From Variovorax paradoxus (GTDB lineage: Bacteria > Pseudomonadota > Gammaproteobacteria > Burkholderiales > Burkholderiaceae_C), in the NCBI RefSeq assembly GCF_029919115.1, contig NZ_CP123990.1, forward strand, positions 620,001 to 684,000: a stretch of 64,000 bases of DNA, in the 5' to 3' direction. Below the pieces are notes generated by a model that saw only the letters and a program-made list of their open reading frames with translations, was not told the DNA's origin and made no database searches. Position numbers and translations under genes: made by a program. Positions 1,278 to 56,632 of this stretch are shown here, one piece after another. The stretch's first letter is position 1. Every line of letters starts with the position of its first letter.

Positions 1278-1336
1278 TTTTTGTTTCAATTTCGCGGGGC
1301 CACTCACGGCCCCGCTATCATTTGCAGAAACCGCAT

Positions 1337-1370
1337 GCCGGGATGCCTGTCAAGGCGCCCGGCTTTTTTA
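1337..1370 (+). terminator. Intrinsic terminator after gltD
   Basis: The stem GCCGGG (1337-1342) pairs with CCCGGC (1358-1363). An inner GCCT/AGGC pairing extends the hairpin, and six T residues (1364-1369) follow directly. A second 8-bp hairpin without a T-run (1294-1301 with 1308-1315) lies just upstream. The terminator also shows that the start of the next gene should be the ATG at 1376 and not the in-frame ATG at 1322. Confidence 0.85.
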
Positions 1371-1375
1371 TTGAG

Positions 1376-2979: not shown

Positions 2980-3017
2980 AGGAGCCTGGGCTCCAATCGT
3001 TCTAGAGAGTGCAAACC

Positions 3018-4255: not shown

Positions 4256-4383
4256 GAACAGGAATCGAGCCGAAAAGAGGCTGTTCACTACCGGACGAGA
4301 TGTTTTCTGCTTGCATCCGGTTTCAAGGCTTCACCTGCGCTTCAGGAACCCGGTCGGCTTCGAGCCCGTCGAATACGTTCTTT

Positions 4384-4416
4384 CCACAAGGCGCGCCTTT
4401 CGTTTGCGCCTTGTGG
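4384..4416 (+). promoter_or_regulatory. Hairpin between mlaA and mlaC
   Basis: A perfect 11-bp stem (4384-4394 with 4406-4416) with an 11-nt loop lies in the 186-nt gap between mlaA and mlaC, ending 25 nt before the mlaC ATG. It is followed by ATTTTC and not by a long T-run. A weak terminator, an RNA-processing site or a stability element in the mla transcript are all possible. The function is inferred only. Confidence 0.5.
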
Positions 4417-4441
4417 ATTTTCAAAACTTGAGGGAATTGCC

Positions 4442-39747: not shown

Positions 39748-42700
39748 CTAGCGCCGTTCGAACTTCAGGATGTTGTCGCCAGTGCCCGGAGCGCCGCTGT
39801 CGGGCGGCGCGAACTTGAAGGCGCTCGGGTCGCGGGCGGATGTCATTTCGTACAGCGGGTGGATGCGGCCAAGGCGCGCACCGCCGTCGCGCACCAGCGG
39901 CGCCCATGCGAAGTTGGCGGTGAACTTGTTCGAGCGCGGCAGCAGTGCATCGAAGGGCACCGAGATGTAGATGCCCTTGTCGAAGCTGCCTTCGCCGAAC
40001 TGCCGTGCCGATATGTTGGTCTTGGTGGCGTAGGCACCGAGCACCACGCCGTTGTCGAAGCGCCGGCTGATGTCGATGGTGACCCCGCGGTCGCCCGCCA
40101 GGTATTGCCCCGCGCTGATCTTGGCCAGGATGCCGTTCCAGCCGGTGTCCCAGTAGAGCGTGGCATGGCCTGTGTTCACCTTGTAGTCGCGCAGGCCGAA
40201 GTCCTGCTCGAAGTCGCGCTGCCGCACATGGTTGAAGTCGACGCCTACGGCCAGCCGGCTGCGCCACGGCCGGTAGAGCCATTCTGCGCCGACGCCCGCA
40301 TACATGCTTTCGAGCGCACCGCCGTACACGCTGTAGTACTGGTTGTCCGTCAGCCGGCCAACGTGGGTCAGCTGCAGCACCGGCATGGTCAGGCGCTTTG
40401 TGGTGACGTACTCGCGCTGGAGCGTTCGCACCCGCGGCAGGTTGCTGGGCGCCGTGTAGGTGAACTTGTCGAAGTTGTCGAGCAGGCGCAGGTTCAGCGC
40501 ACCATTGACCCAGGTGCTCGGCGTGAAGCGGTATTCGGCAACCGCCTGCACGCCGATCTGGTACAGCACGAAAGAGTTGGGGCCCCCGAGGATCTGGCCC
40601 AGGCTGGGCGTCAGGCCAATGCTGAACTTGGAGGTGCGGCGCTCCCACGGCGCCAGTGCCTTGTTGTCGCCTGCAATGTCCGGCGCATCCCTGGACGCGA
40701 TGGCCGCATTGGTGTGCGGAAGATTGGCGGGCTGAAAGTCGGCGCCGATGGGCGGGGGCGCGTAGTCGCGCTGGCTGGCCGCGCGGGCTTCACTCGGCGT
40801 CTGCGCTTGGTAGTGCGCCGTCACCCATTCGTTGCGGTCGACCACTTGCGCATGCATCGGCAAGCCGCGCTCCGAGTAATGCAGCACGAAGTTCTTGATC
40901 GAACCCGGCGCATCGCGATGCAGCACGGCAATGATCTGCTCGACGCGCGCGTTGCGGTAGACGGTGGCGCTTTCGGTGATCCACACGTGCAGCATCTGGC
41001 CCTGCGGGGCGATGCGCTGGATGGTCCACTCGGTGCGGCTTTCGATGTCCGCTGCAGTGGCTGCCCAGCCCGGAGAAGTGGCGGGCGGCGTCGGCGAAAA
41101 GCGCGGTGCCGGCGGATCCGCCGTCTTGGGCATTTGCATGCTCGCCAGGTTGGTCTGCAGCGTAAGACCCACCATCACCTTGTTGCCGCGCTCCAGCCCG
41201 GCGGAAAAGGTTACGCCGGGGGCGTAGCGGTACTCCAGCCCGAAGTTGATCGGCGAGCGCCGCGGCTGGTCGTTGTTGAGCGGCTCGTTCTTGTAGTTGT
41301 TGCCCTCGAACTCGAGCTTGAGCGTGAGCGGGTCCCAGGGCGTGCGCCATTGCACGCCGCCAAAGAGCGCGGTGGGTCCGCGAAAGAGCCGGCCGAAGTT
41401 GGCGCCACCCCATGTCGTCTCGCTGACGCGGGTCTTGAAGCGGCTGCTCAGCACACCGAACGGGTTGCTGATGGTTCCGCTGCTGCCCATGTAGCCCCAG
41501 CCGATGCCGAGGCTGAAATCCAGGTCGCCGTGCCGCTTGCTCGCCACGAGGTATTCGGACGAAAAGAGACCGGTACCGCCGATATCGCGAAAGCCCAGGG
41601 CCACCTCGGGCAGGTAGGCCGACTCTTTCCACAGCCGCGCCTTGAAGTCGATGCTCTTGTCCTTGTAGTCCTGGTTGCTCAAGCCGATGCCGTAGATGCG
41701 GTTGCCGATGGACGTGTAGCGGAAGCCGGCTTCGAGCCAGTCCAGCGGCTGGAACATCACGTTCAGCCGCGTGTAGGGCGAGACGTGCGTGATGGATGTG
41801 CGCATGTCGCCGGCCTGGCCCATGCGCGCAGAAGGCGTCTGCAGCAGGCCGGTTTCACCCCAGTCGTTGCCGCTGGGCTGCAGCGGGCGGTACTGCGGTG
41901 CGGCTTCGGGGCGCACTGAAACAGTGGTGGGCTGGTAGGACGCGGCTTGCGGCACGGGCTCGGCGGATGGGGCGGCCGCAGGTTCAGGTTCAGGTGCAGG
42001 TGCGGGTACCGCGATAGCCGCGGCAGTAGCGCCTTGCGGCGACGGTCCCTGCGTGGCCAGGAACTTGATCAGCCCCTCGGAGGCTGCCTCGAGGTCGTCC
42101 ATGCCGCGAGGCGCCGCCCACACCCAGGCGCCGGGTGCCGGTTCGTCCGAGGGATGCGCATTCCACGTTGCCATGCCGACACGCGCAGTGCGGCCGTCGG
42201 GCTGTGCCACCCATGCCCAGTCATGCTTGCCTTCGGGCGCGCAAGCGGCCACGTAGTCCCATGCCGTGCGGCCAGGCTCGTGGGCCACCTGGCAGAGCCG
42301 CCCGTCGGGCTGCACCACCGAGACTGTGTTCAAGAGCGGCGGTGGCGCAACGAGTTGCTGGCCGGCCGTGAGCACCGGGTCTTCTTCAGGATGCGCCTCG
42401 AGCCAGCGCGGGTCCACGATGCCGAGCGCAACGCGGCCCGTAACGGGGAGGTTCTGCAGCCATCCAATCAGCCGCTGGCGTTGCGCCTGCTCTTCCCGCG
42501 GTGCGCGCCGCCTTGCGGCCTCGAGCCGCAGCAGCACCTGGTTCTTCAGGAATTGCTGCGCCAGCCGCTCTTGCGGAATGCGCCACGACAAGCCCGGGGC
42601 GGCCGTTTCCGCCGGCTGCCGCAGCAGCCAGGTGCTCAGGCGCTCGCCCGGGCGAATGTCGCTGTCGTCGGCGGGGGACTTGTTGTCGACGGGGCCATTG

Positions 42701-42807
42701 CCCAGGGGCTGGGCTGTGGCTGCGCAACTCGCCGCGAGCGCGCAGGCCACCGCTGCGCGAAGGGGCCAGGGGTGTTTGCCGAAGCCACGCAGAAGCGCGC
42801 CGCTCAT
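39748..42807 (-). CDS. Fused YjbG-YjbH (GfcC-GfcD) exopolysaccharide outer-membrane protein
   Basis: A predicted 1019-residue exported protein. After the signal peptide (ending about residue 33, AATAQ), residues about 45-265 look like YjbG/GfcC, with IRPGERLSTWLLRQP, VTGRVAL and APGAWVWAAPRGMDDLEAASEGLIKFL. A Pro/Ala/Glu-rich linker follows (about 270-310). Residues about 330-1019 match the YjbH/GfcD beta-barrel family (GETGLLQTPSARMGQAGD, FRYTSIGNRIYG, WGGANFGRLFRG, ARQFGEGSFDKGIYISVPF). In E. coli these are separate genes of yjbEFGH/gfcABCD. The ATG at 42807 overlaps the yjbF-type stop. An earlier in-frame start (42873) lies inside that gene. Confidence 0.85.
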   Translation of the reverse strand: MSGALLRGFGKHPWPLRAAVACALAASCAATAQPLGNGPVDNKSPADDSDIRPGERLSTWLLRQPAETAAPGLSWRIPQERLAQQFLKNQVLLRLEAARRRAPREEQAQRQRLIGWLQNLPVTGRVALGIVDPRWLEAHPEEDPVLTAGQQLVAPPPLLNTVSVVQPDGRLCQVAHEPGRTAWDYVAACAPEGKHDWAWVAQPDGRTARVGMATWNAHPSDEPAPGAWVWAAPRGMDDLEAASEGLIKFLATQGPSPQGATAAAIAVPAPAPEPEPAAAPSAEPVPQAASYQPTTVSVRPEAAPQYRPLQPSGNDWGETGLLQTPSARMGQAGDMRTSITHVSPYTRLNVMFQPLDWLEAGFRYTSIGNRIYGIGLSNQDYKDKSIDFKARLWKESAYLPEVALGFRDIGGTGLFSSEYLVASKRHGDLDFSLGIGWGYMGSSGTISNPFGVLSSRFKTRVSETTWGGANFGRLFRGPTALFGGVQWRTPWDPLTLKLEFEGNNYKNEPLNNDQPRRSPINFGLEYRYAPGVTFSAGLERGNKVMVGLTLQTNLASMQMPKTADPPAPRFSPTPPATSPGWAATAADIESRTEWTIQRIAPQGQMLHVWITESATVYRNARVEQIIAVLHRDAPGSIKNFVLHYSERGLPMHAQVVDRNEWVTAHYQAQTPSEARAASQRDYAPPPIGADFQPANLPHTNAAIASRDAPDIAGDNKALAPWERRTSKFSIGLTPSLGQILGGPNSFVLYQIGVQAVAEYRFTPSTWVNGALNLRLLDNFDKFTYTAPSNLPRVRTLQREYVTTKRLTMPVLQLTHVGRLTDNQYYSVYGGALESMYAGVGAEWLYRPWRSRLAVGVDFNHVRQRDFEQDFGLRDYKVNTGHATLYWDTGWNGILAKISAGQYLAGDRGVTIDISRRFDNGVVLGAYATKTNISARQFGEGSFDKGIYISVPFDALLPRSNKFTANFAWAPLVRDGGARLGRIHPLYEMTSARDPSAFKFAPPDSGAPGTGDNILKFERR

Positions 42808-43626
42808 GTACCAGCGCTCGCCGCTGCGACGGGTGCTGGAGAAGAAGGCGTCCACTGCTCGAAGCTCATACACAGATCATTGGAAATACATTGCTCGGAA
42901 TAAACGACCCGAGGGGTGCCGCCCGCTTGTGAGACGCCGAAGCGCGCGGGTGGCAACGAGGCGCTTGCCGGCCGCGAAACGCTGCGCTCCTCGTACCAGC
43001 GCAGGGAAGCAGCAGCCGTGCCAGCCAAGGCGGTTTGCTGCGGTGCGGCAATCGGCGACAGCACGATCTCGTCACGAACGCCGAACCGGTAGCCCGGCAT
43101 CATGTCGCGTTGGCGGCGATAGGTTTTTGCAGACGGCGCGGTGCCGGCATCGGCGCTCCAGGCTGGCAGTACTGAAAACCGCACCTCGCGCCAATCGGTG
43201 GAAAGACCGGTGGTTCCCACCAGGCGTCCATCGAGCAGCCTGACGACCTCGCCGCTGCCGCTGTACCAGACTTCGACCGCGCCTTCAGGGCGCTTGTCTA
43301 TACAGCCTGACGACCTCGCCGCTGCCGCTGTACCAGACTTCGACCGCGCCTTCAGGGCGCTTGTCTATATAGCCGAGCACCATGAACACCGTCTGGTCGC
43401 CGGTGGCTACCCGCAAATAGCGGTAATTGGGATTAAAGGCGGGCAGGGGCGCCGAAGGCGCGCCGCTATATAGATGCCGAGCCGTTGCCAGCATGGCAGA
43501 AGATCCGGAAGAACAGCCGCCAACGCCCAAAAGAAATGCCGCCAAAAGACAGCATTCAACAAGTCGCGTGGCGTGGCCAACGCGCGGACTATTCAGCGAA
43601 TGCCCTCCCGTCCGGAGGGCGCCCAC
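42804..43626 (-). pseudogene. YjbF/GfcB-type lipoprotein gene, frameshifted by a 67-bp tandem duplication
   Basis: The gene reads in two frames. The 5' part (43626 to 43285) has a signal and lipobox (LLGVGGC), then RYLRVATGDQTVFMVLGYID and AVEVWYSGSGEVVRL. It runs off frame inside a repeat and stops after 113 codons. The 3' part resumes in another frame with VGTTGLSTDWREVRFSVLP and ends at 42804. Deleting one 67-nt copy leaves 756 nt, a 251-residue protein of normal YjbF size. The GTG at 43626 lacks an RBS; a better Shine-Dalgarno (GGGAGG) precedes an in-frame CTG at 43596. Whether the lesion is real or an assembly error is unresolved. Confidence 0.85.
43236..43369. repeat. Exact 67-bp tandem duplication inside the yjbF-type gene
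   Basis: Copies 43236-43302 and 43303-43369 are identical. The flanking bases differ on both sides (43235 against 43302; 43303 against 43370), so the unit is exactly 67 nt. Since 67 is not a multiple of 3, the reading frame is lost. The same period occurs at 56400. Confidence 0.98.
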
Positions 43627-43628
43627 GG

Positions 43629-43925
43629 TTAATTCGTGCCGGTCGTACCTGTGCCGGTGCCGCCGGTGCCGCCCGTGCCGCTGCCACCGCCGCTGTTGCC
43701 ACCGTTGCCACTGGCTACGGCAGCTGCCAGGCCCACGCTGGCAGCAACGCCACCGGCCTGTCCGGCGGTAATACGGCCGAACGCGGAATTGGTTGCGCCA
43801 GTAGCGCTTGCCGGCTGGGCGACGGGTGTTTGAACGGGAGGCGTCGGGGTCGGGGCCTGTGCCAGAGCCGAAGAAATGCTCAAGGCTGCAATGGCGGTTG
43901 CGAACACCAATGGCTTAATTCTCAT
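43629..43925 (-). CDS. Small exported Gly/Thr-rich protein, YjbE/GfcA-like
   Basis: A predicted 98-residue protein. A signal peptide (residues about 1-21, ending SSALAQ) is followed by a Pro-rich stretch, then a small hydrophobic GVAASVGLAAAVASG segment, and a Gly/Ser/Thr-rich tail. This layout and its position as first gene before YjbF and YjbGH match E. coli YjbE/GfcA. Low complexity makes the similarity hard to prove. AGAGG lies 9 nt before the ATG at 43925; an alternative ATG at 43934 abuts that site. Confidence 0.72.
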   Translation of the reverse strand: MRIKPLVFATAIAALSISSALAQAPTPTPPVQTPVAQPASATGATNSAFGRITAGQAGGVAASVGLAAAVASGNGGNSGGGSGTGGTGGTGTGTTGTN

Positions 43926-44221
43926 GGCAAACATCCTCTCAAATTGACGATTAACAGTTGAGAGAAGATTAGCAGCTAGCGAAGTGTGCCGCAACTAATT
44001 TAGCCTTTTGCAACCATTTGCCGGTGCAAATCGTTGTGACGAAATGTCGGCCAAATAAGTTGCAAATAAATACTAATTAATTGTTCTTAGTTGATCTTCC
44101 AGAGTGTCTGGCGGCAGCGCATTCGCACGTGCTCCGGGCTGGCGGCGTTGAATATGCCCACAACAGCCCGCTACAATCGCCGGTTGACCCTGCTCCAGCG
44201 AAGAAGACTTAGAGGATCCCC
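43926..44221. promoter_or_regulatory. Divergent spacer between the yjbE-type gene and petA
   Basis: The 296-nt spacer is clearly AT-richer than the genes, notably around 43985-44095, and should hold promoters for both directions. I see no gene or RNA here. The last 60 nt before petA are GC-rich and include an AAGAAGACTTAGAGG stretch next to the start. Confidence 0.45.
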
Positions 44222-44836
44222 ATGAGTGACATGACCTCCGGTTCCCCCCGGATCGACACAAGCAAGCGGACGTGGTTAATCGCATCCAGCTGTGCCGGCG
44301 TAGCGGGAGGCGTGGCCACCGCGATTCCCTTCGTAAGTACTTTCCAGCCCTCCGAAAAGGCCAAGGCCGCAGGCGCTGCGGTCGAGGTGGATATCGCAGG
44401 CCTCAAGGTCGGCGAGAAGATCACCGTCGAATGGCGAGGCAAGCCGGTTTGGATCCTCAAGCGTTCGAACGAGCAGGTCGCCGAGCTGGCCAAGCTCGAC
44501 GGGCAGCTGGCCGATCCGCTCTCCAAGCGGCATCCCGACGAGTTCACCCCCGAATACGCGCAAAACCAGCACCGCTCCATCAAGCCGGACGTGCTGGTGG
44601 TCGTGGGTATCTGCACCCACCTCGGCTGCTCGCCCGTCGACCGCCTCCAGGCCGGACCGCAGCCTTCGCTCCCGAACGACTGGGAAGGCGGCTTCCTGTG
44701 CCCTTGCCACGGCTCCACCTTCGACCTGGCCGGCCGCGTCTTCAAGAACAAGCCTGCGCCTGACAACCTGCCTGTGCCCCCGCACATGTACCTGTCGGAA
44801 ACCAAGTTGCTCATCGGCGAAGACAAGAAGGCCTGA
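44222..44836 (+). CDS. petA: Ubiquinol-cytochrome c reductase Rieske iron-sulfur subunit
   Basis: A 204-residue Rieske protein of the bc1 complex, transferring electrons from ubiquinol to cytochrome c1. The [2Fe-2S] ligands are in CTHLGC (131-136) and CPCHGS (160-165). An N-terminal membrane anchor spans about residues 18-40. It is preceded by Ser-Lys-Arg-Thr-Trp-Leu, a Lys-Arg variant of the Tat twin-arginine motif. petB and petC follow. Confidence 0.97.
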   Translation: MSDMTSGSPRIDTSKRTWLIASSCAGVAGGVATAIPFVSTFQPSEKAKAAGAAVEVDIAGLKVGEKITVEWRGKPVWILKRSNEQVAELAKLDGQLADPLSKRHPDEFTPEYAQNQHRSIKPDVLVVVGICTHLGCSPVDRLQAGPQPSLPNDWEGGFLCPCHGSTFDLAGRVFKNKPAPDNLPVPPHMYLSETKLLIGEDKKA

Positions 44837-44850
44837 GGCAGAAGAAGAAC

Positions 44851-46287
44851 ATGGCTGAATTCCACGAAATTTCCCCCAATGCGCCTGCCGGCGAGAAGCT
44901 GCTCAACTGGGTTGACAACCGCTTCCCCCTGACCAAGCTCTGGAACGACCAGTGGGGCAAGTACTACGCGCCGAAGAACTTCAACTTCTGGTACATCTTC
45001 GGCTCGCTCGCGATGCTGGTCCTCGTGATCCAGATCGTGACCGGCATCTTCCTGGTGATGCACTACAAGCCCGACGCTAACCAGGCGTTCGCGTCGGTCG
45101 AGTACATCATGCGCGACGTGCCCTGGGGCTGGCTCATCCGCTACATCCACTCGACGGGCGCCTCGGCGTTCTTCATCGTGGTGTACCTGCACATGTTCCG
45201 CGGCCTCATGTATGGCAGCTACCGCAAGCCGCGCGAGCTGATCTGGGTTTTCGGCTGCGCGATCTTCCTGTGCCTGATGGCCGAAGCCTTCATGGGCTAT
45301 CTTCTGCCGTGGGGCCAGATGTCGTACTGGGGCGCCCAGGTGATCGTGAACCTGTTCGCCGCCATCCCGTTCATCGGCCCCGACCTTGCGTTGCTGATTC
45401 GCGGCGACTACGTGGTGAGCGATGCAACGCTCAATCGCTTCTTCAGCTTCCACGTCATTGCCGTGCCGCTGGTGCTGCTCGGCCTCGTGGTGGCCCACCT
45501 GATCGCTCTGCACGAAGTGGGTTCCAACAACCCCGACGGCATCGAGATCAAGGCCAACCGTGGCCCCGATGGCCATCCGCTCGACGGCATCCCGTCGCAC
45601 CCGTACTACACGGTGCACGACATCTTCGGCGTGGTGGTGTTCCTCACGATCTTCTCGGCGGTGATCTTCTTCGCGCCCGAAGCAGGTGGGTACTTCCTCG
45701 AGTACAACAACTTCATTCCGGCCGATTCGCTCAAGACGCCCAACCACATTGCGCCGGTCTGGTACTTCACGCCGTTCTACTCGATGCTGCGTGCAACCAC
45801 CGACGACATGGTCAACGTGTTCGCGCTGATCATCGGCCTTGCCGCCGTCCTGAACTTCATCAAGGGCAAGTCGGGCACCGGGCTGAAAATCGCGGCTGTC
45901 GTCGCCGCGGCCGTGGTCATCTTCCTGCTCAAGGCCTTCGACGCCAAGTTCTGGGGCGTGGTCGTGATGGGCGGCTCGGTCATCATCCTGTTCTTCCTGC
46001 CCTGGCTGGACAAGAGCGAAGTCAAGTCGATCCGCTATCGTCCCAGCTGGCACAAGTACGTGTATGGCGTCTTCGTGTTCTTCTTCCTGATCCTGGGCTA
46101 CCTGGGTATCCAGGCACCCGGCGTCTGGGGCAACCTGGTCATCGGTTCGTTCGCGCTCGACATCGCGCAGACCATTTCGCAGATCGGCACGCTTTTCTAC
46201 TTCGGTTTCTTCCTGCTCATGCCGTGGTGGAGCAGCAAGGGCGAGTTCAAGCCCGTGCCCGACCGCGTGACCTTCGCCGCCCATTGA
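44851..46287 (+). CDS. petB: Ubiquinol-cytochrome c reductase cytochrome b subunit
   Basis: A 478-residue full-length cytochrome b with both b6-like and subunit IV-like parts. Heme-ligand histidines are visible in GWLIRYIHSTGASAFFIVVYLHMFRG and FSFHVIAVPLVLLGLVVAHL. The Qo-site PEWY-type position appears as PVWYFTPFYSMLR, a Pro-Val-Trp-Tyr form seen in some proteobacteria. The C-terminal region has additional membrane helices. It starts 14 nt after petA. Confidence 0.97.
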   Translation: MAEFHEISPNAPAGEKLLNWVDNRFPLTKLWNDQWGKYYAPKNFNFWYIFGSLAMLVLVIQIVTGIFLVMHYKPDANQAFASVEYIMRDVPWGWLIRYIHSTGASAFFIVVYLHMFRGLMYGSYRKPRELIWVFGCAIFLCLMAEAFMGYLLPWGQMSYWGAQVIVNLFAAIPFIGPDLALLIRGDYVVSDATLNRFFSFHVIAVPLVLLGLVVAHLIALHEVGSNNPDGIEIKANRGPDGHPLDGIPSHPYYTVHDIFGVVVFLTIFSAVIFFAPEAGGYFLEYNNFIPADSLKTPNHIAPVWYFTPFYSMLRATTDDMVNVFALIIGLAAVLNFIKGKSGTGLKIAAVVAAAVVIFLLKAFDAKFWGVVVMGGSVIILFFLPWLDKSEVKSIRYRPSWHKYVYGVFVFFFLILGYLGIQAPGVWGNLVIGSFALDIAQTISQIGTLFYFGFFLLMPWWSSKGEFKPVPDRVTFAAH

Positions 46288-46316
46288 GAAGCCCAAGAGA
46301 GCTCGAGAGAAACACG

Positions 46317-47090
46317 ATGAAGAAAAGCATTTCTGGCTGGCTCGCGGTTGTGGGCCTGGCACTGGGCCTGACCTTTTCCGCAGGTGCATCGGCCGAATCC
46401 GGCGGTATTGCATGGGACAAGGCGCCCAACAAGACCACCGACGTGGCCTCCCTGCAGAACGGCGCCAAGCTGTTCGTCAACTACTGTCTCAACTGCCACT
46501 CGGCCGCCTTCATGCGCTACAACCGCCTGAAGGACATCGGCATTACCGAGCAGCAGATCAAGGACAACCTGCTGTTCTCGACCGACAAGGTCGGCGAGAC
46601 CATGAAGGCCAACATCGACGCCCGCCAGGCCAAGGACTGGTTCGGCACCACGCCGCCCGACCTCACGCTCGTCGCACGCTCGCGCGCCGGCCACGGCGGC
46701 ACCGGTGCCGACTACCTGTACACCTACCTGCGCACCTACTACCGCGACGAGACCAAGGCCACGGGCTGGAACAACCTCGTGTTCCCGAGCGTTGCCATGC
46801 CCAACCCGCTGTGGGAGCTGCAAGGCGAACGCCGCCCGGTGTACGCCAAGGTCGAGCAGCACGGCCACACCAGCGAAGTGTTCAAGGGCTGGGAGCAAGT
46901 CACTCCCGGCACCATGACGCCGCTGCAGTTCGACAACGCCGTGGGCGACTTGGTGAACTACCTGCAATGGATGGCCGAGCCGGCACAGAACACGCGCATC
47001 CGCATCGGCGTGTGGGTGTTGCTGTTCCTGGCGCTGTCGTTGGTTTTTGTGTGGCGACTGAACGCCTCGTACTGGAAAGACGTCAAGTAG
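46317..47090 (+). CDS. petC: Ubiquinol-cytochrome c reductase cytochrome c1
   Basis: A 257-residue membrane-anchored cytochrome c1. The signal peptide ends near ASA (residue 26). The heme c motif is CLNCH (57-61), and the methionine ligand probably lies in FPSVAMPNPLWEL. The C-terminal anchor (IGVWVLLFLALSLVFVW) is followed by a short tail. Last gene of petABC; a clear terminator follows. Confidence 0.97.
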   Translation: MKKSISGWLAVVGLALGLTFSAGASAESGGIAWDKAPNKTTDVASLQNGAKLFVNYCLNCHSAAFMRYNRLKDIGITEQQIKDNLLFSTDKVGETMKANIDARQAKDWFGTTPPDLTLVARSRAGHGGTGADYLYTYLRTYYRDETKATGWNNLVFPSVAMPNPLWELQGERRPVYAKVEQHGHTSEVFKGWEQVTPGTMTPLQFDNAVGDLVNYLQWMAEPAQNTRIRIGVWVLLFLALSLVFVWRLNASYWKDVK

Positions 47091-47132
47091 TTCCGTCCAC
47101 GCCGACCGGGCGCCTCGTGCGTCCGGTCCCAC

Positions 47133-47170
47133 AGAGTGGGTTGCCAACGCGACCCACTCTTTTTGATTTT
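47133..47170 (+). terminator. Intrinsic terminator after petABC
   Basis: A perfect 9-bp stem, AGAGTGGGT (47133-47141) with ACCCACTCT (47152-47160), and a 10-nt loop are followed by TTTTGATTTTT. It ends just before the RBS of sspA (TAGGAG at about 47171). Confidence 0.88.
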
Positions 47171-47185
47171 TAGGAGTCTCTCGCC

Positions 47186-47797
47186 ATGATGGTCTTGTAT
47201 TCAGGAACGACCTGCCCCTTTTCCCACCGCTGCCGCTTCGTGTTGTTCGAAAAGGGCATGGACTTCGAAATCCGCGACGTCGACCTCTACAACAAGCCCG
47301 AAGACATCAGCGTGATGAATCCGTACGGCCAGGTGCCGATCCTGGTCGAGCGCGACCTGATCCTGTACGAGTCGAACATCATCAACGAGTACATCGACGA
47401 GCGCTTTCCGCATCCCCAGCTGATGCCCGGCGACCCGGTCGACCGCGCGCGCGTGCGCCTGTTCCTGCTCAACTTCGAGAAGGAACTCTTCGTGCACGTG
47501 GCAACGCTTGAGAACCGCACCGCCAAGGGCAACGAAAAGGCGCTCGAAAAGGCCCGCTCGCACATTCGCGACCGCCTTACGCAGCTCGCGCCCGTGTTCC
47601 TCAAGAACAAGTACATGCTGGGCGACAACTTCTCGATGCTCGACGTGGCCATCGCGCCGCTGCTCTGGCGCCTCGACTATTACGGCATCGACCTGAGCAA
47701 GAACGCGGCGCCGCTTCTGAAGTACGCTGAGCGCATCTTCTCGCGCCCGGCCTACATCGAAGCACTGACCCCGTCCGAAAAGGTCATGCGAAAGTAA
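47186..47797 (+). CDS. sspA: Stringent starvation protein A (GST-fold)
   Basis: A 203-residue SspA homologue. The glutathione S-transferase-like N-domain begins LYSGTTCPFSHRCRFVLFEKGMDFE, and NPYGQVPILVERDLILYESNIINEYIDERFPHP and PGDPVDRARVRLFL are conserved. In E. coli SspA binds RNA polymerase and alters promoter choice under starvation. Start codons ATG-ATG; TAGGAG is just upstream. It precedes sspB. Confidence 0.96.
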   Translation: MMVLYSGTTCPFSHRCRFVLFEKGMDFEIRDVDLYNKPEDISVMNPYGQVPILVERDLILYESNIINEYIDERFPHPQLMPGDPVDRARVRLFLLNFEKELFVHVATLENRTAKGNEKALEKARSHIRDRLTQLAPVFLKNKYMLGDNFSMLDVAIAPLLWRLDYYGIDLSKNAAPLLKYAERIFSRPAYIEALTPSEKVMRK

Positions 47798-47838
47798 GTA
47801 AGCTGCGTGCCTGCTTCCATCGCTTTTCGCCGTCTTTC

Positions 47839-48426
47839 ATGATCAACGCGCTCGAGTCGTCCTCCACCCGCCCGTACCTTATCCGGGCGCTGTACGAATG
47901 GTGCACCGACAACGGGTTCACGCCCTATGTCGCGGTGCAGGTCGACGACACCGTCCAGGTGCCGCGCGAGTACGTGAAGAACGGCGAGATCGTGCTGAAC
48001 ATCAGCTTCGACGCGACCAGCTCGCTCAAGCTCGGCAATGATTTCATCGAGTTCAAGGCCCGTTTTGCCGGCAGCGCGCGCGAAATCATCGTGCCCGTGG
48101 GCCGGGTGATCGCGATCTATGCACGCGAGAACGGGCAGGGCATGGCTTTCCCGGCTCCGGTGCCCGCAGGCAGCGGCGCCGAGGGCGGTGCTTCCACGGG
48201 CGCCGGGGCGCCTTCGCCCCAGGGGTCCGGGCGCATGCCGCTGCGGGATGCCTCGCGTGGTACCGAAGGCGATGCCGGCAAGATCGTGCACCTGGTCACG
48301 GGTGAAGACTCGGATGAAATGGTCGATGTCGGTGACGATTCCGGCTCATCGGCCGGCCCCCACGACGAGCCGCCGCGTCCTCCGGCCGGTGGCGGCAGCC
48401 GCCCCTCGCTCAAGCGCGTGAAGTAG
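47839..48426 (+). CDS. sspB: ClpXP specificity-enhancing factor SspB
   Basis: A 195-residue adaptor that delivers ssrA-tagged proteins to ClpXP. The conserved core is STRPYLIRALYEWCTDNGFTPY, VNISFDATSSLKLGNDFIEFKARF-like, and VPVGRVIAIYARENGQGMAF. The long, acidic C-terminal linker (VTGEDSDEMVDVGDD) and a basic tail ending LKRVK fit the ClpX-binding tail of SspB. It is 41 nt after sspA. Confidence 0.95.
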   Translation: MINALESSSTRPYLIRALYEWCTDNGFTPYVAVQVDDTVQVPREYVKNGEIVLNISFDATSSLKLGNDFIEFKARFAGSAREIIVPVGRVIAIYARENGQGMAFPAPVPAGSGAEGGASTGAGAPSPQGSGRMPLRDASRGTEGDAGKIVHLVTGEDSDEMVDVGDDSGSSAGPHDEPPRPPAGGGSRPSLKRVK

Positions 48427-48460
48427 GCGCGTTTCGCACCGCTAAAATCCCAGGATTCGT

Positions 48461-48536
48461 GCCGCTTTAGCTCAGTTGGTAGAGCACCCGCCTTGTAAGC
48501 GGAAGGTCGTCAGTTCGATTCCGACAAGCGGCACCA
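48461..48536 (+). tRNA. tRNA-Thr (anticodon TGT)
   Basis: A 76-nt cloverleaf with acceptor arm GCCGCTT/AAGCGGC and encoded CCA at 48534-48536. The D arm is GCTC...GAGC and the T arm includes GTTCGATT. The anticodon TGT is at 48494-48496. The anticodon stem has one mismatch at its outer pair. It lies 34 nt after sspB. Confidence 0.96.
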
Positions 48537-48575
48537 TATATCGAAGATCCCGGAAAGGCATCCGCCTTGGCCGGC

Positions 48576-48613
48576 AAACAAAAAGGGGCGATTTCTCGCC
48601 CCTTTTTTGTTTC
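48576..48613. terminator. Bidirectional intrinsic terminator
   Basis: A 10-bp stem, AAAAGGGGCG (48581-48590) with CGCCCCTTTT (48597-48606), has a 6-nt loop and is flanked by an A-run on one side and a T-run on the other. It can end the sspB/tRNA transcript rightward and the YXWGXW gene leftward. Confidence 0.9.
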
Positions 48614-48633
48614 CTTCCAGCGGCTGACAGAGA

Positions 48634-49035
48634 TCAGCAACGGCCCTTCTTGGCTTGTCCCGGCGGGCAGTGCGGGTGCCCGCCGCCGCCATGGTCGCCG
48701 CCGTGGTCCGCGTGGCGCGGTCGCTCCGCCCGGCGCCAGTCGCCTTCCATCCATCGCCATCCGCCGTCCGCCTGAACCCAGCGGCCCGGCGCGTACGCGT
48801 AGTCTGGCCGTGCGGCCTGCCAGAAGCCGGCGCGCCAGACGTAGGCGCGCTGGTTCCACTGCCAGTGCCCCGGCACCCACACCTGGCCGGCCCTGGGCCC
48901 CGGCATGGGCTCATACCGGGGCGCGGGCGGCGCAACCTGGACCAGAGGCAGGTTGATGTTGACCGAAACCTGTGCCGCGGCGGGCAGGGCGGACGCGACG
49001 AACGCGGCGGCCACCAGAAGAGCTGAGACTTTCAT
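48634..49035 (-). CDS. Secreted protein with tryptophan-rich (YXWGXW-like) repeats
   Basis: A predicted 133-residue protein. The signal peptide (MKVSALLVAAAFVASALPAAAQ) spans residues 1-22. The mature part has three related units (VWVPGHWQWNQRAYVW, RAGFWQAARPDYAYAPG and RWVQADGGWRWMEGDW), typical of YXWGXW-repeat proteins. A His/Gly-rich tail (HADHGGDHGGGGHPH) could bind metal. The function is unknown. AAGG precedes the ATG at 49035; an in-frame earlier start (49179) lacks support. Confidence 0.82.
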   Translation of the reverse strand: MKVSALLVAAAFVASALPAAAQVSVNINLPLVQVAPPAPRYEPMPGPRAGQVWVPGHWQWNQRAYVWRAGFWQAARPDYAYAPGRWVQADGGWRWMEGDWRRAERPRHADHGGDHGGGGHPHCPPGQAKKGRC

Positions 49036-49190
49036 CGGAACCTTTTTTGGATATGTGAACACGTATGCACAACGCAGACCGGCGCAAAGTGTAATCAGCG
49101 CATTCCTCAGGTCGCGTCGTATCGAAAGCGTGCTAGCCGGGCGCCGCCGCTCCTGCCGGGTGCTAGAGTTGAAGTGCAAGTTGCACGCTG

Positions 49191-49979
49191 ATGCGCAGAC
49201 TCCGCTTTCTTACCCACCGGCATCGCGCCCCTTCGACGAATCGGGTGCTCGGCCTTCTGCTGGCCTTCAATGCCGGCGCGGTCAATGCGGGCGGCTTTCT
49301 TGTGCTGCACATGTATACCTCGCACATGACGGGCTTCGCGTCGCAGTTTGCCGACGGCCTCGTGCTTGGCAACACCAGGCTCCTGCTGAATGCGCTGGGC
49401 GCCATTCTGGCTTTTGTCTCGGGCGCCGCCGTCTGCGCCATTCTCGTGAACTGGGGTCGCCAGCATCGCCTGCGCAGCGTCTATGCGGTACCGCTGCTTC
49501 TCGAGGCGGCGCTCATGTTTCCGTTCGGCCTGATGGGGGCCATCACGCTGACATGGCCCACGCCGTTTGCGGTACCGCTCACGGTGCTGTTGCTATCTTT
49601 CATCATGGGCTTGCAGAACGCCGTCGGTTCGAAGACCTCCGGAGGCAGCATTCGCACGACCCACATGACCGGCAACATCACCGACGTGGGCATGGAACTG
49701 GGCAAGCTGCTCTACTGGAACCGCCATGCAACGCCCAAGCAGGCGATGGTGCGCCACAACCGCCGCAAGATGCAGGCGGCGGGCGGGCTGATCGGCATGT
49801 TCGTAGCGGGCGGAATTGTCGGCGCGCTCGGTTTCAGCTATATCGGCTTCGTATGCGTCGTGCCGCTCGCGGCATTGCTGCTGGCCGTCTCGGTGCCGCC
49901 TCTGGTGCAAGACGTGCCGCGGTCCAGAACCCTGCAAAAGCTATTGGCGGCATTCAAACAGCGCCCACACTTCCCGTGA
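49191..49979 (+). CDS. DUF1275 (YoaK) family membrane protein
   Basis: A 262-residue membrane protein with about six helices. Family features are LLAFNAGAVNAGGFLVL, YTSHMTGFASQFAD, and the second half-repeat QNAVGSKTSGGSIRTTHMTGNITDVGMELG. The function is unknown in this widespread family. Its 3' end overlaps the convergent SDR gene by 26 nt. Confidence 0.9.
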   Translation: MRRLRFLTHRHRAPSTNRVLGLLLAFNAGAVNAGGFLVLHMYTSHMTGFASQFADGLVLGNTRLLLNALGAILAFVSGAAVCAILVNWGRQHRLRSVYAVPLLLEAALMFPFGLMGAITLTWPTPFAVPLTVLLLSFIMGLQNAVGSKTSGGSIRTTHMTGNITDVGMELGKLLYWNRHATPKQAMVRHNRRKMQAAGGLIGMFVAGGIVGALGFSYIGFVCVVPLAALLLAVSVPPLVQDVPRSRTLQKLLAAFKQRPHFP

Positions 49980-50979
49980 TCGGCAGCACGATGCCGGTGA
50001 TGTAGCTGGCGCAACTGGGCGCGGCCAGGAACACATAGGCGGGAGAAAGCTCCTCGGGTTGCGCCGGTCTTTGCATGTCGGTGTTCTTGCCGAAGTCCTT
50101 TACTTTTTCCGGCGGGCTGTCCGCCGGGTTCAAGGGCGTCCACACCGGCCCTGGCGCGACCGCATTCACGCGAATGCCCTTCGGCAACAGGTTGCTGGCC
50201 AGCGACTTGGTGAAGGCGTGAATCGCGCCCTTGGTGGTCGAGTAGTCGAGCAGGTGCGCGCTTCCTTCCAGGCCCGTGACCGAACCGGTGTTGATGATCG
50301 ACGAGCCCTGGCCGAGGTGCGGCACCGCGGCGCGCGCCATCTGAAAATAGCCGAACACATTGGTCCGGAGCGTCAGGTCAAAGCGCTCATCGGTAATGTC
50401 CTCGATCGATGAGGCATGCAACTGGAAGGCTGCGTTGTTCACCAGGATGTCGAGCTTGCCGAAGGCTTCGATCGTCTTGTCGACCGCCTCGCGGCAGAAC
50501 GCCGGATCGCAGACATCGCCCTTGATCACGAGGCAGCGCGCGCCTTCGTCCTCGACATGCTTGCGGGTTTCCTCTGCGTCCTCGTCTTCATCGAGGTGCA
50601 CGATGGCCACGTCGGCGCCTTCGCGCGCATAGAGCAGCGCCACGGCGCGGCCGATGCCGGAGTCGCCTCCGGTGATCAGCGCCGTCATGCCTTCGAGCTT
50701 GCCGCTGCCCTGGTAATCCGGCGCTTCGAACCGGGGGCGCAACTCCATGTCTGCTTCCTGCCCGGGTTTGCTCAGGTGCTGTGCCGGCATCGGGTTGGTC
50801 GGCTCGGGGCGCGAGCCGGCCTGTGCGGGCTGGCTGGACTTTTTGGCAGCGGGTTTCCCGCTTTCTTGGGCACTGTCTTTTGCATCCTGTGCGCGTTGAA
50901 CCTCGCGCTGCTTGTCAGCCGTATGGGCTGCCCCTGCGGACTTGGCGGATTTTGGGGGTGATGACGTGGTCGATTTCAT
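49954..50979 (-). CDS. SDR-family oxidoreductase (YghA-like) with disordered N-terminal extension
   Basis: A predicted 341-residue short-chain dehydrogenase. The Rossmann motif TGGDSGIGRAVAL, the NNAAFQ segment, catalytic Ser in GSVTG and YSTTKGA (Tyr-x-x-x-Lys) are intact, and VNAVAPGPVWTPLNP is typical of the YghA/general stress SDR group. The first 85 or so residues are Lys/Ala/Ser/Pro-rich and probably disordered, longer than in E. coli YghA (294 residues). The ATG at 50979 has AGGAG 10 nt upstream. The substrate is unknown. Confidence 0.88.
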   Translation of the reverse strand: MKSTTSSPPKSAKSAGAAHTADKQREVQRAQDAKDSAQESGKPAAKKSSQPAQAGSRPEPTNPMPAQHLSKPGQEADMELRPRFEAPDYQGSGKLEGMTALITGGDSGIGRAVALLYAREGADVAIVHLDEDEDAEETRKHVEDEGARCLVIKGDVCDPAFCREAVDKTIEAFGKLDILVNNAAFQLHASSIEDITDERFDLTLRTNVFGYFQMARAAVPHLGQGSSIINTGSVTGLEGSAHLLDYSTTKGAIHAFTKSLASNLLPKGIRVNAVAPGPVWTPLNPADSPPEKVKDFGKNTDMQRPAQPEELSPAYVFLAAPSCASYITGIVLPITGSVGAV

Positions 50980-51095
50980 GGTGCCTGGGCTCCTCATGTA
51001 AACGACCACCGTAAAACTCCGCCGCCTGGCCGGCGTAGGAATCCGTCCCGACCGCATGCCCGCCGTGTCGCGCGAACCTGCCCCGCGACGGCGAG

Positions 51096-52817
51096 CTAGA
51101 TTTCCGCGCCCTCGACGAGGAAGCGCACGCGGCGCACACCCTGCCACTCATCGGCATCGAGCCTGAAGGCGAGCTTCACGCGCGCAGGCAGCGGATCGGT
51201 ATGGCCGAACCAGATGCCGTCGACCGGATGGCCCTGGTGCCGCAGCTTGAGCGCCAGGTGCTTTTCGCCGACGAGGCGTTGCGACACCACCTCTACCTCC
51301 TCGCTGAAGGTGGGCGGCGCAAAGCCTTGGCCCCATACCTCGCGATGCAGCGTGTCGACGAGGTCGATGCGCATGTACTCGCGTTCCAGCGGGCCGTCGG
51401 TGTCGAGGCGCCGGGTCAGCGTGGCTGCATCGAGCCATTCGTGCGCAACCTCGGCCAGCGCGCGTTCGAACACCTCGAACTTCTCGCGCGCCACGGTGCA
51501 GCCCGCTGCCATGGCATGCCCCCCAAAGCGCAGCAGCACGCCCGGATGCCGCTTGGCCACAAGGTCGAGCGCATCACGCAGGTGAAAGCCCGGAATCGAC
51601 CGGCCCGAGCCCTTGAGCTCGTGTTCCTTGCCCGGCGCGCCGCTGGCGGCAAACACGAAGGTCGGGCGATGGAAGCGGTCTTTCAGGCGCGACGCCACGA
51701 TGCCGACAACGCCCTCGTGGAATTCTGCATCGAACACGCTGATGGCCGCGGGCGGCGCTTCGCCGCCCGCGGCATCGGGGCCGAAGAGCGACTCGGCCAG
51801 CATCAGCGCCTGGTCGCGCATCCCGCCTTCGATGTCGCGCCGCTCTCGGTTGATGCCGTCGAGCATGCGCGCAAGTTCATCGGCACGGCCGGCGTCGTCC
51901 GTCAGCAGGCATTCGATGCCCAGCGTCATGTCGGCGAGCCTTCCGGCCGCGTTGATGCGCGGACCGAGCGCAAAGCCGAAGTCGAAAGTGGTGGCCACCG
52001 AAGCGTTGCGCCCGGCCGCCTTGAAGAGTGCCGCAATGCCCGCTGGCAGTGCGCCAGCGCGAATGCGCCTGAGGCCCTGCGCAACCAGGCGGCGGTTGTT
52101 GGCGTCGAGCTTCACCACGTCGGCGACGGTGCCGAGCGCCACCAGCGGAAGCAGCACGTCCAGCTTGGGCTGCGTTGCCGCCGTGAACACGCCGCGCGTG
52201 CGCAACTCGGAGCGCAGCGCCAGCAGCACATAGAACATCACGCCCACGCCGGCAATGCTCTTGCTCTCGAAGCCGCAGCAGGGCTGGTTGGGGTTCACCA
52301 GCACATCGGCGGCCGGCAGTTCCGGGCCGGGCAGGTGGTGGTCGGTTACCAGCACCTGCAGGCCGCGCGCCTTGGCGGCCGCCACGCCCTCGACGCTGGC
52401 AATGCCGTTGTCCACGGTGATCAGCATGTCGGCGCCGCTGTTTGCGACGCGCTCGGCAATCGGCGGCGTGAGGCCGTAGCCGTCGACCACGCGGTCGGGC
52501 ACCAGGTAGCTCACGTTCTTTGCGCCGAGCAGGCGCAGGCCGCGCACGGCAACGGCGCAGGCAGTGGCGCCGTCGCAGTCGTAGTCGGCCACGATGCACA
52601 GGCGCTTGTCCTGCGCCATGGCATCGGCCAGCAGCACCGCCGCTTCGCGCGCGCCGTGCAGCGTATCGGGCGGCAGCAGGCGCGCCAGGCCGTCGTCGAG
52701 CTCGTCTTTGGCCAGCACGCCGCGCGCGGCAAAAAGGCGGGCCAGCAAGGGGTGCACACCGGCCTGCTCCAGCGCCCAGACCGTGCGGGGCGGAATTTCC
52801 CTGGCGATGATCTTCAT
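51096..52817 (-). CDS. recJ: Single-stranded-DNA-specific exonuclease RecJ
   Basis: A 573-residue 5'-3' ssDNA exonuclease of recombination and repair. The DHH-family motifs are visible: ADYDCDGATACAV, the VTDHH element, NPNQP and ALGTVADVVKLD. The DHHA1 part has FGGHAMAAGC. The start overlaps the stop of the upstream gene (ATGA at 52814-52817), so the two are co-translated. Confidence 0.96.
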   Translation of the reverse strand: MKIIAREIPPRTVWALEQAGVHPLLARLFAARGVLAKDELDDGLARLLPPDTLHGAREAAVLLADAMAQDKRLCIVADYDCDGATACAVAVRGLRLLGAKNVSYLVPDRVVDGYGLTPPIAERVANSGADMLITVDNGIASVEGVAAAKARGLQVLVTDHHLPGPELPAADVLVNPNQPCCGFESKSIAGVGVMFYVLLALRSELRTRGVFTAATQPKLDVLLPLVALGTVADVVKLDANNRRLVAQGLRRIRAGALPAGIAALFKAAGRNASVATTFDFGFALGPRINAAGRLADMTLGIECLLTDDAGRADELARMLDGINRERRDIEGGMRDQALMLAESLFGPDAAGGEAPPAAISVFDAEFHEGVVGIVASRLKDRFHRPTFVFAASGAPGKEHELKGSGRSIPGFHLRDALDLVAKRHPGVLLRFGGHAMAAGCTVAREKFEVFERALAEVAHEWLDAATLTRRLDTDGPLEREYMRIDLVDTLHREVWGQGFAPPTFSEEVEVVSQRLVGEKHLALKLRHQGHPVDGIWFGHTDPLPARVKLAFRLDADEWQGVRRVRFLVEGAEI

Positions 52818-53779
52818 AGGGCCTCGAGCACCGCAGGGGCGCGTGGCCGGTCGAACAGGCTTTTGGCCCAACCCACCAGGCCGCGCTGCTGTACCGCATA
52901 GCGCTGCGCCGCACGGTCGCCGCACAGCGTGAGCGTGATGTCGGCACCGGCGGTGTAGTCGGCCAGCAGGCCGGCGACGGGCCCCGCATCCAGCGCTTGC
53001 CACGCCTGTGCCCATTCCGGCCCGTCGTCGCGCAATGCGGCCACGCGAAGCGCGTCGCTCACGGTGGGCGCGGGCATGGCGGGAGAAGGGTCCGCCTGCA
53101 GCGCGCCGGTGCCGCTGAGCCAGAAGGAGTTGATCGGCGGTACGCCGCGGGCGGCGCGGTCGTCGTTCACGCGTTGGGTATAGAGCAGCATCTGCATTTC
53201 GTTCTGGAGGCGGCGCAGCGGCCGCGCGGCTTCGGCCAGCGGCGACCACTGCGAAATCGGATGGCCCACCGCACGGTCGATCGATGCCGTTGCCAGGCCG
53301 TCGAAGATGCGCGCGCGCGCCAGCCAGCGGCCCGGCGTGGAAGAGGGGTGCAGCGCAATGCCGTCTTCCTCGAAGAAGGGATGGGCGGCGGCCAGCAGTG
53401 TGGCCGATTCCGCGGCATCGATCTCGATGGCGCTCGGGTCGCCCAGCACCACGTCGTCGATGCCCACCTGCCAATTGCAAAGCGACACCAGGCCCCAGCC
53501 TTCGCGGTCGCCGGGCTCGGCAATGCCGATCTGCCTGGCCTCGAGCGCGGCCCAGGGAATGCAGCCGTCGGCTGCAGAAATGCCCAGCGCCGCGGCCAGC
53601 GCCCGTTCATGGGGCGGTGAGCGCGTGCTTTCGTCTTGGGTATCGGTCTCCACCAGCGAGAGGCGGGAGAGCAGGGACTCGAGGTTGGGCAGCCGAAGCG
53701 ATGGCAGCGCGGCGCGGCAAGCAGGGGAACCGCGGCCGGCAAAGGGAATCAACAGATGACGTGGGAGAGGTTCGGCCAT
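52814..53779 (-). CDS. Conserved protein of unknown function upstream of recJ (RpfE-like?)
   Basis: A predicted 321-residue protein with no catalytic motif I can defend. The N-terminus LPRHLLIPFAGRGSPACRAAL and mid motifs (WGLVSLCNWQVGIDDVVL, and NDDRAARGVPPINSFWLSGTG) fit the conserved family found beside recJ. I recall this family being labelled phosphoglycerate-mutase-like or RpfE-like, and Xanthomonas rpfE is also near recJ. Neither label implies a known activity here. The ATG at 53779 is preferred over 53803. It is coupled to recJ. Confidence 0.7.
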   Translation of the reverse strand: MAEPLPRHLLIPFAGRGSPACRAALPSLRLPNLESLLSRLSLVETDTQDESTRSPPHERALAAALGISAADGCIPWAALEARQIGIAEPGDREGWGLVSLCNWQVGIDDVVLGDPSAIEIDAAESATLLAAAHPFFEEDGIALHPSSTPGRWLARARIFDGLATASIDRAVGHPISQWSPLAEAARPLRRLQNEMQMLLYTQRVNDDRAARGVPPINSFWLSGTGALQADPSPAMPAPTVSDALRVAALRDDGPEWAQAWQALDAGPVAGLLADYTAGADITLTLCGDRAAQRYAVQQRGLVGWAKSLFDRPRAPAVLEAL

Positions 53780-53867
53780 TCCCCTATTGTCCGGGAATGC
53801 CACAATCCCGGGGATGAAACGCCCCGAAGCGCCGTTGGCGCCGGAAGCGCGTTAAATAACTGAAAAT

Positions 53868-55124
53868 ATGCGACTTCCTTATGAACTGCAGCTCGGCTGG
53901 CGCTATACGCGCGCAGGCCGGGCGACACGGCGCAACGGCTTCATCTCCTTCATCTCCGGCGTGTCGATGCTTGGCATCGCATTGGGGGTGGCGGCGCTGA
54001 TCATCGTGCTCAGCGTGATGAACGGCTTCCAGAAGGAAGTGCGCGACCGCATGCTCGGCGTGGTGTCGCACATCGAAATACTTTCGCGCGACGGCCAGGC
54101 CCTGCCCGACATCGACGCCATCACGGCAGCCGCCCGCAAGAACCCCGAAGTCATCGGCGCCGCCCCCTTCATTGCCACGCAGGCGCTCATTGCGCGCGGC
54201 GAAGACATGAAGGGCACGCTGGTGCGCGGCATCGTGCCCAAGCTCGAACCCGAGGTCACCGACATTGCCACCACCGCGCAAAAGGGCACGCTCGACAAGC
54301 TGGTGCCGGGCGAGTTCGGCATCGTGCTCGGCGGCGAGCTGGCCCGGTCGCTCTTCGTGCACCCGGGCGACCAGGTCACGCTGGTGGCACCTGGCGGGCA
54401 GGTCACGCCCGCGGGCGTGGTGCCGCGGCTCAAGCAGTTCACCGTGGTGGGCACCTTCGATTCGGGCCACTACGAATACGACTCGGCGCTGGCAATGATT
54501 CATGCCGAAGACGCGCAGCGCGTGTTCCGGCTCGACGGGCCCACCGGTATCCGCATCAAGCTCAAGGACCTCAACGAGGCACGCGACGTGGCCGACCAGA
54601 TGGCCGTCACCCTGCCGGGCCAGTTTCTCATTCGAGACTGGACGCGCCAGAACAAGACATGGTTTGCGGCCGTCCAGGTCGAGAAACGCATGATGTTCAT
54701 CATCCTCACGCTCATCGTGGCCGTGGCGGCCTTCAATCTGGTGTCCACGCTGGTAATGACCGTGACCGACAAGCGCGCGGACATTGCCATCTTGCGCACA
54801 CTGGGCAGTTCGCCGCGCAGCATCATGGGCATCTTCGTGGTGCAGGGTGCCATGGTCGGCGTGATCGGCACCGTGGCCGGGCTGCTGCTGGGGCTGGGCA
54901 TTGCCTACAACATCGACGTGATCGTGCCCGCGCTCGAGCAGCTCTTTCATGCGAGCTTCCTGCCCAAGGACATCTACCTGATCAGCAAGATGCCGAGCGA
55001 CCCGCAGCGCAGCGACATCATGCCGATTGCGATCATTTCCCTTGTCCTGGCCTTCCTGGCCACGCTGTATCCGAGCTGGCGCGCGAGCCGCGTCAACCCC
55101 GCCGAGGCCCTGCGCTATGAGTGA
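53868..55124 (+). CDS. lolC: Lipoprotein-releasing ABC transporter permease LolC/LolE
   Basis: A 418-residue inner-membrane permease that extracts outer-membrane lipoproteins and passes them to LolA. The N-terminal [15 protein letters not shown] is typical. The first membrane helix ([27 protein letters not shown]), the large periplasmic domain and three C-terminal helices are in the right order. Only one LolC/E gene is seen, suggesting a homodimeric permease. It overlaps lolD by 8 nt. Confidence 0.95.
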
Positions 55125-55878
55125 ACGGACCCCCACGCTCGGCACTGACGTGTCCTCGCTGCCCCCCGAGGGGGCCGCCAGCGGCTTGGGGCGGCCCGGC
55201 GCCAATGCCGTCGTCCTGAAGGCCCGCGGCCTTACCAAGCGCTTTCACGAGGGGCGCATCGACCTCACCGTGCTGCACGGCGTCGACCTGGACGTGCGCG
55301 CCGGCGAAACGCTGGCCATCGTCGGCGCCTCGGGTTCCGGCAAGAGCACGCTGCTGCACCTGATGGGCGGGCTCGACGCGCCCACCTCCGGAAAGGTCGA
55401 GCTGCTCGGCAAGGACATCGCGCATGCCGATGCGGCCGAGCAGGGGCGGCTTCGCAACCAGCACCTGGGCTTCGTCTACCAGTTTCACCACTTGCTGCCC
55501 GAATTCAGCGCGCTCGACAACGTGGCGATGCCGCTCAAGATCCGGCGCACCGAGCCCGCGCAAGCGGCGGCGGCGGCCACCAGGATTCTCGAAAGCGTGG
55601 GCCTTGGCGGCCGCCTGCATCACCGGCCCGCGGAGCTGTCCGGCGGCGAGCGCCAGCGCGTGGCCATCGCGCGCGCGCTGGTCACGCAGCCGGCCTGCGT
55701 GCTGGCCGACGAACCCACGGGCAACCTCGACCGCAACACGGCCGACACCGTGTTTGCGCTGATGATCGAACTCGCGCACAAGCACCGCACGGCGTTCGTG
55801 ATGGTCACGCACGACCAGGAACTTGCAAAGCGCTGCGACCGCGTGCTGCAACTTGTGGCGGGACGTCTGGCGGGTTGA
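55117..55878 (+). CDS. lolD: Lipoprotein-releasing ABC transporter ATPase LolD
   Basis: A 253-residue ATPase powering lipoprotein release. Walker A (GASGSGKST), the Q-loop with LolD motif ([20 protein letters not shown]), signature LSGGERQR and Walker B ([12 protein letters not shown]) are intact. The first 30 residues are unusual: Ser13-Gly28 are encoded by a GC-rich double palindrome that looks like a mobile intergenic repeat. No clear alternative start lies between it and the domain. Confidence 0.95.
55155..55200 (+). repeat. REP-like double palindrome inside the lolD 5' coding region
   Basis: Two adjoining hairpins are seen: GCCCCC/GGGGGC (55161-55166 with 55170-55175) and GGCCGCC/GGCGGCC (55173-55179 with 55190-55196). 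The sequence resembles a GC-rich repeat that I associate with intergenic regions of Comamonadaceae genomes. Here it is translated in frame near the LolD N-terminus. No second copy occurs in this window. Confidence 0.65.
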
Positions 55879-55971
55879 GTCGATGCCGCCTGCCACGCGT
55901 GCACGCAATGTCGGCGAAACTGTCTGTCTGTTCGGCAAGATGCCGTTCAACTACAGGAGTGCTTCTTCATC

Positions 55972-56632
55972 ATGGAAACCGACGACGACACCACGCCCGC
56001 TGCCACTGCCGAGCCGCGCAACTCCTATCTGGAAGAAAAAGCGTTCAAGTCGCGCACGCTGCTGATCTTCGGCAGCATCACCGATTCGGTGGCCGCCGAC
56101 GTGACGCGCAGGCTCATCGCGCTGGACGCCGACAGCGCCGACAAACCCATCGACATCCTGGTGAGCTCGCCCGGCGGCCACCTGGAATCGGGCGATGCGA
56201 TCCACGACATCGTGCGTTTCATTTCTGCGCCGGTGAACATGATCGGCACCGGCTGGGTCGGCAGCGCCGCCACGCATCTGTACCTGGCCGCGCCGAAGGA
56301 ACGGCGCGTGTGCCTGCCCAACACCCGCTTCCTGATTCACCAGCCCAGCGGTGGCGCGGGCGGTCAGGCGACGGACATTGCCATTCAGGCGCAAGAGATC
56401 ATCAAGGCCAGGCATCGCATTGCGCACGAAATCGCGCGCGAAACCGGCAAGCCGATCGACGTGGTGCATCAAGGCCAGGCATCGCATTGCGCACGAAATC
56501 GCGCGCGAAACCGGCAAGCCGATCGACGTGGTGCTGGCCGACATCGAGCGCGACCGCTGGCTCTCGGCCGAGGAAGCGGTCGAATACGGCCTGGTCTCGC
56601 GCATCATCCAGCGCAAGACCGAGCTGCGGTAA
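55972..56632 (+). pseudogene. ClpP-like serine peptidase gene, frameshifted by a 67-bp tandem duplication
   Basis: The first 165 codons match a ClpP-type protease: FGSITDSVAADV, ILVSSPGGHLESGDAIHD, VGSAATHLYLAA (Ser98) and FLIHQPSGG (His123). The frame then breaks in a repeat and would stop at 56649 as a 225-residue product without the catalytic Asp. Beyond the repeat the family sequence resumes in another frame (DIERDRWLSAEEAVEYGLVSRI) to 56632. Removing one 67-nt copy gives 197 residues with Asp172 in place, matching the E. coli spacing. No clpX is adjacent, so it is an orphan or ClpP2-type gene. The lesion may be an assembly artefact. Confidence 0.87.
56400..56533. repeat. Exact 67-bp tandem duplication inside the clpP-like gene
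   Basis: Copies 56400-56466 and 56467-56533 are identical; base 56534 also matches by extension. The period (67 nt) equals that of the duplication at 43236-43369. The unit is not a multiple of three and breaks the frame. Confidence 0.98.

Follow-up and report, generated by a model that had tools for sequence, protein, structure and literature searches.

Contigs assembled from a de Bruijn graph overlap at their ends, and these overlaps need to be trimmed so that each contig leads directly into its neighbours, as is described in the Unicycler paper (PMC5481147). Technical artefacts are also treated as a source of pseudogenes in a paper entitled 'Many purported pseudogenes in bacterial genomes are bona fide genes' (PMC11017572), as far as its title and the opening of its abstract indicate. 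The locus analysed here resembles such cases in that frameshifted genes occur in a deposited genome while the relatives possess intact genes; the signature in the present genome is a duplication of fixed length. A paper on exactly such a 67-nt duplication artefact was not found among the literature matches listed.

The analysed stretch of DNA (the window; 64,000 nt, C1:620001-684000, G+C content 64.4%) belongs to the single 5,810,675-bp contig which represents the genome of Variovorax paradoxus. One protein encoded in the window shows 100% identity over 203 residues to proteins from four Variovorax genomes. The initial annotation had claimed two exact duplications with a common period of 67 nt, and the copy pairs at 43236-43369 (duplication A) and 56400-56533 (duplication B) are indeed identical. 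The runs of identity at a lag of 67 nt comprise 67 nt in the first case (43236-43302) and 68 nt in the second (56400-56467). Besides these two duplications, no exact repeat of at least 22 nt was detected when the window was scanned with lags from 5 to 4999. By chance, an exact run of 67 nt at one given lag would be expected approximately 5e-32 times in 1.664 Mb. Putative contig joins are located between positions 43302 and 43303 at duplication A and between 56466 and 56467 at duplication B. If both are untrimmed joins, the segment 43303-56466 would represent one contig, which is consistent with the two join points. The coordinates of all features are compiled in Table 1.

Table 1. Coordinates of the duplications, of the affected genes in the window and of the period-67 sites in the scanned parts of the genome. 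Positions refer to the window unless C1 is given.
Feature	Position	Strand	Remarks
Duplication A, copy 1 of the 67-nt unit	43236..43302		
Duplication A, copy 2	43303..43369		G004 with one copy
Duplication B, copy 1 of the 67-nt unit	56400..56466		
Duplication B, copy 2	56467..56533		G004 with one copy
YjbH gene, frame intact	39748..42873	-	PF06082, E 3e-236
Gene adjoining yjbH, split by duplication A	42804..43626	-	ORFs 43285-43626 and 42804-43220
ClpP-like protease gene, interrupted by duplication B	55972..56632	+	two pieces, PF00574, different frames
Period-67 sites	C1: 469336, 542748, 663236, 676400, 909591, 934821, 1242958, 2604818, 4072973, 4075356, 4339493		

Since 67 is a multiple of three plus one, the frame is shifted in any gene that spans such a join. 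Neither piece of the gene adjoining yjbH showed a match to Pfam or NCBIfam, and this gene may be YjbF/GfcB-like, judged by its position in the operon only. To compare the reading frames, all six frames of the relatives' loci were read. For the ClpP-like gene, 41 genomes were searched, the own genome and 24 relatives of the same genus included. A long DNA match was present in 16 of these 24 relatives, and all 16 loci, counted without a weaker locus from the same order (L041), contained both parts of the gene in one open frame, in contrast to the two frames found here. The search for the gene adjoining yjbH, likewise in 41 genomes, revealed long matches in G004, G011, G014, G017, G018 and G020. 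The frame count comprised one locus each of G004, G011, G014, G017 and G020, but neither the weaker G018 locus nor an additional weaker locus in G020; both parts shared one frame in 5/5 loci, but occupy two frames in the window. A full-length ClpP match without internal stops also occurs elsewhere in the genome (C1:2602564-2603103), and the ClpP-like gene of the window is distinct from it. Duplications A and B are truly present and truly frame-breaking in the deposited text, but almost certainly absent from the organism.

The scan for further duplications of period 67 proposed in the initial annotation was performed on three parts of the contig (C1 420001-1284000, 2500001-2900000 and 4000001-4400000; in total 1,664,000 bases or 28.6%), while the other 4,146,675 of the 5,810,675 bases lie outside the scan. 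It bore out the proposal, since eleven exact tandem duplications of this period were found, among them the two of the window (663236 corresponds to duplication A and 676400 to duplication B), versus none in 0.8 Mb of six relatives. The two copies are identical in all eleven pairs, with nothing between them, and the unit sequences of the eleven sites all differ from each other. As control, 800,000 bases from six relatives were used (560 kb of G004, 60 kb each of G011 and G020, 40 kb each of G005, G008 and G014), in which no exact tandem duplication with a period from 20 to 2999 was detected.

Furthermore, G004, the nearest of the relatives searched, is collinear and possesses one copy at nine of the eleven sites, as two flanking alignments overlap there. 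These overlaps comprise 72 bases at 663236, 68 at 676400, 73 at 909591, 67 at 934821, 68 at 1242958, 67 at 2604818, 68 at 4072973, 70 at 4075356 and 65 bases at 4339493. Across duplication A, a single copy is also present in G011 and G020, and across duplication B in G005, G008, G011, G014 and G020. Regarding the two other sites, a multicopy element forms the flank at 469336-469469, where 273 nt in this genome correspond to 13 nt at the collinear position of G004; at 542748, the alignment to G004 extends over just 43-51 nt within the stretches compared. The additional DNA at the join at 469336 resembles a multicopy element, and the left part also matches a second locus in G004.

Three other readings were rejected. 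A mobile element or target-site duplication does not apply, because the eleven sites have different units and their copies directly adjoin each other. Phase variation was rejected, as the relatives compared across duplications A and B possess one copy, and ordinary natural tandem repeats were rejected because none with a period of 20-2999 occurred in the 0.8 Mb of the relatives.

Mutations in nature commonly include exact tandem duplications, and independent events of replication slippage or microhomology-mediated repair might have produced the duplications, with the length of 67 nt arising by coincidence. Such events would be expected to leave homology at the borders and to vary in length. 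Neither was observed: all eleven cases are of period 67, although they lie at unrelated sites, and the runs of identity exceed 67 nt by 1, 0, 0, 1, 0, 2, 1, 0, 1, 0 and 0 nt (order of sites as in Table 1). The mean excess of 0.55 for the eleven sites compares to 0.76 expected by chance extension at the given base composition. Thus, there is no border homology beyond chance, i.e. no microhomology, at the period-67 sites, which argues against slippage as well as against microhomology-mediated repair. Together with the absence of such duplications from the 0.8 Mb of relatives, this makes a natural origin by coincidence extremely improbable.

The doubling of 67 nt at many unrelated places and its absence from the related genomes indicate an assembly artefact, and that the duplications represent an assembly error of some kind can be regarded as practically certain. 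This also affects genes outside the window. The gene context covers the sites other than 469336, 542748, 2604818, 4072973 and 4075356. Site 909591 is located inside sdhA (C1:908232-910074), the two parts of which match TIGR01816 in different frames, while both parts are found in one frame of 646 residues in sdhA of G004. When the whole genome was searched with TIGR01816, no match exceeded the cut-off. Beside the two pieces of sdhA, one further strong match to this family was obtained (2847506-2849035), and this is the L-aspartate oxidase gene nadB (NF006567, 899 bits vs. a cut-off of 629). As only the pieces and nadB match TIGR01816, the deposited genome contains no intact sdhA of this family. 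An aerobe without an intact sdhA is implausible, and natural duplications at this site would mean the loss of the only sdhA.

Additionally, the C-terminal part of feoB lies in another frame at site 934821, while feoB of G004 forms one frame of 643 residues. Site 4339493 is located at the end of the match to cydB (profile position 227 of 378), and 109 open codons follow in a frame that differs from that of the first part of cydB. A later ORF in this region showed no family match, and therefore cydB is only probably broken by the duplication. The duplication at 1242958 is located at the beginning of a gene for KdgD; the sequence from its second copy onward encodes the complete domain, so that no break of this gene is evident. 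The view that period-67 sites cluster at frameshifts thus holds for the four sites that split genes (A, B, sdhA and feoB), and for the site in cydB only probably.

A constant length, exact copies and a lack of microhomology, as observed, would also be predicted by a real process in the cell that acts with fixed length, for example staggered nicking followed by fill-in, and writes 67-nt duplications at dozens of sites including sdhA. We know of no process in the cell that writes fixed duplications of 67 nt. Such a process would likewise cost the strain its only sdhA, and it leaves unexplained the other periods found in repeats and a join with a fold-back, which are described below. Hardly any credence can be given to this explanation.

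In the 1.664 Mb scanned, exact tandem duplications were also found with periods of 33 nt (two), 35 nt (four) and 40, 43, 51 and 58 nt (one each), the last being the sole period above 51 nt other than 67. Most of these are clustered or lie within repeats. One cluster of approximately 2.9 kb (4072546-4075489) contains the periods 33, 40, 35, 67, 51, 35 and 67 in a region with inverted, self-matching paralogous sequence. Together, the first three periods account for the 108 nt by which this stretch exceeds that of G004 (1041 query vs. 933 target bases). The tandems of period 33 or 35 at 539754, 539945 and 730609 lie within a short interspersed multicopy element. At 539754-540000 and 730609, this element is multicopy in G004 and G020, too, and sequence similar to it occurs in imperfect tandem at 2884898 and 4171705. 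A second cluster (4027201-4027590) comprises exact tandems of 43 and 58 nt, plus a 58-nt repeat at a lag of 76 nt.

Two further joins are interrupted. At 1279287-1279470, a 68-mer is repeated after 48 nt, and this filler lies inside a 61-nt stretch which matches the opposite strand of the downstream DNA in G004. At 2776981-2777123, a 67-mer is repeated after 9 nt, next to a perfect hairpin. These deviant joins look like joins in repeats or palindromes that were made with other overlaps or with a fold-back tip. The proposal of a k-mer join artefact in the initial annotation is therefore supported by the eleven sites, but not in the form of a single k: one fixed overlap length does not explain every join, namely those of 33-58 nt and the two interrupted ones.

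The deviant joins also bear on how the extra copies were written. The 67-mers of duplications A and B are unique in the genome, i.e. they have no long match elsewhere, so that contig ends at these positions are not accounted for by a repeat. From this uniqueness and the deviant joins it follows that both plain joining and gap filling are possible. In the latter case, a gap-filling or polishing step would have inserted 67 nt of the flank a second time, instead of contigs being joined untrimmed. The mixed overlaps within the cluster of approximately 2.9 kb resemble filling in hard regions, and the two joins whose copies are separated by a fold-back or filler, as well as the unique units of A and B, point in the same direction. 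However, the constant length of 67 nt at distant single-copy sites is most simply explained by a fixed overlap length, and gap filling is therefore considered quite improbable, if less so than either process in the cell.

Hence, it is very likely that contigs with a common terminal 67-mer were joined untrimmed. An assembly based on k-mers (de Bruijn graph) would have yielded contigs with the same 67-mer at their ends; when these were joined with the overlap left in, the stretch would have been written twice, and a gene lying over the join would have gained 67 nt and lost its frame. The length of 67 nt would then presumably be the overlap length of the assembler (k or k-1), and the extra copy was most probably written by plain joining and not, for example, by gap filling. 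The duplications correspond to untrimmed overlaps of de Bruijn contig ends in their exact copies, constant length, lack of microhomology and placement independent of genes; they differ from them in that some joins in this genome show other lengths or a fold-back tip.

The record itself looks complete: it consists of one contig, is scored 100% complete, and the 1.264 Mb counted contain no N. Extrapolation from the eleven sites in 1.664 Mb suggests approximately 38 period-67 sites in the whole record. An over-represented single exact tandem period could serve as a cheap quality check for any assembly that is called complete. If the duplications are an artefact, the frameshifts in both genes of the window, in sdhA, in feoB and probably in cydB would be false in spite of the complete appearance of the record, and pseudogene counts, claims of gene loss and metabolic models derived from it would be wrong.
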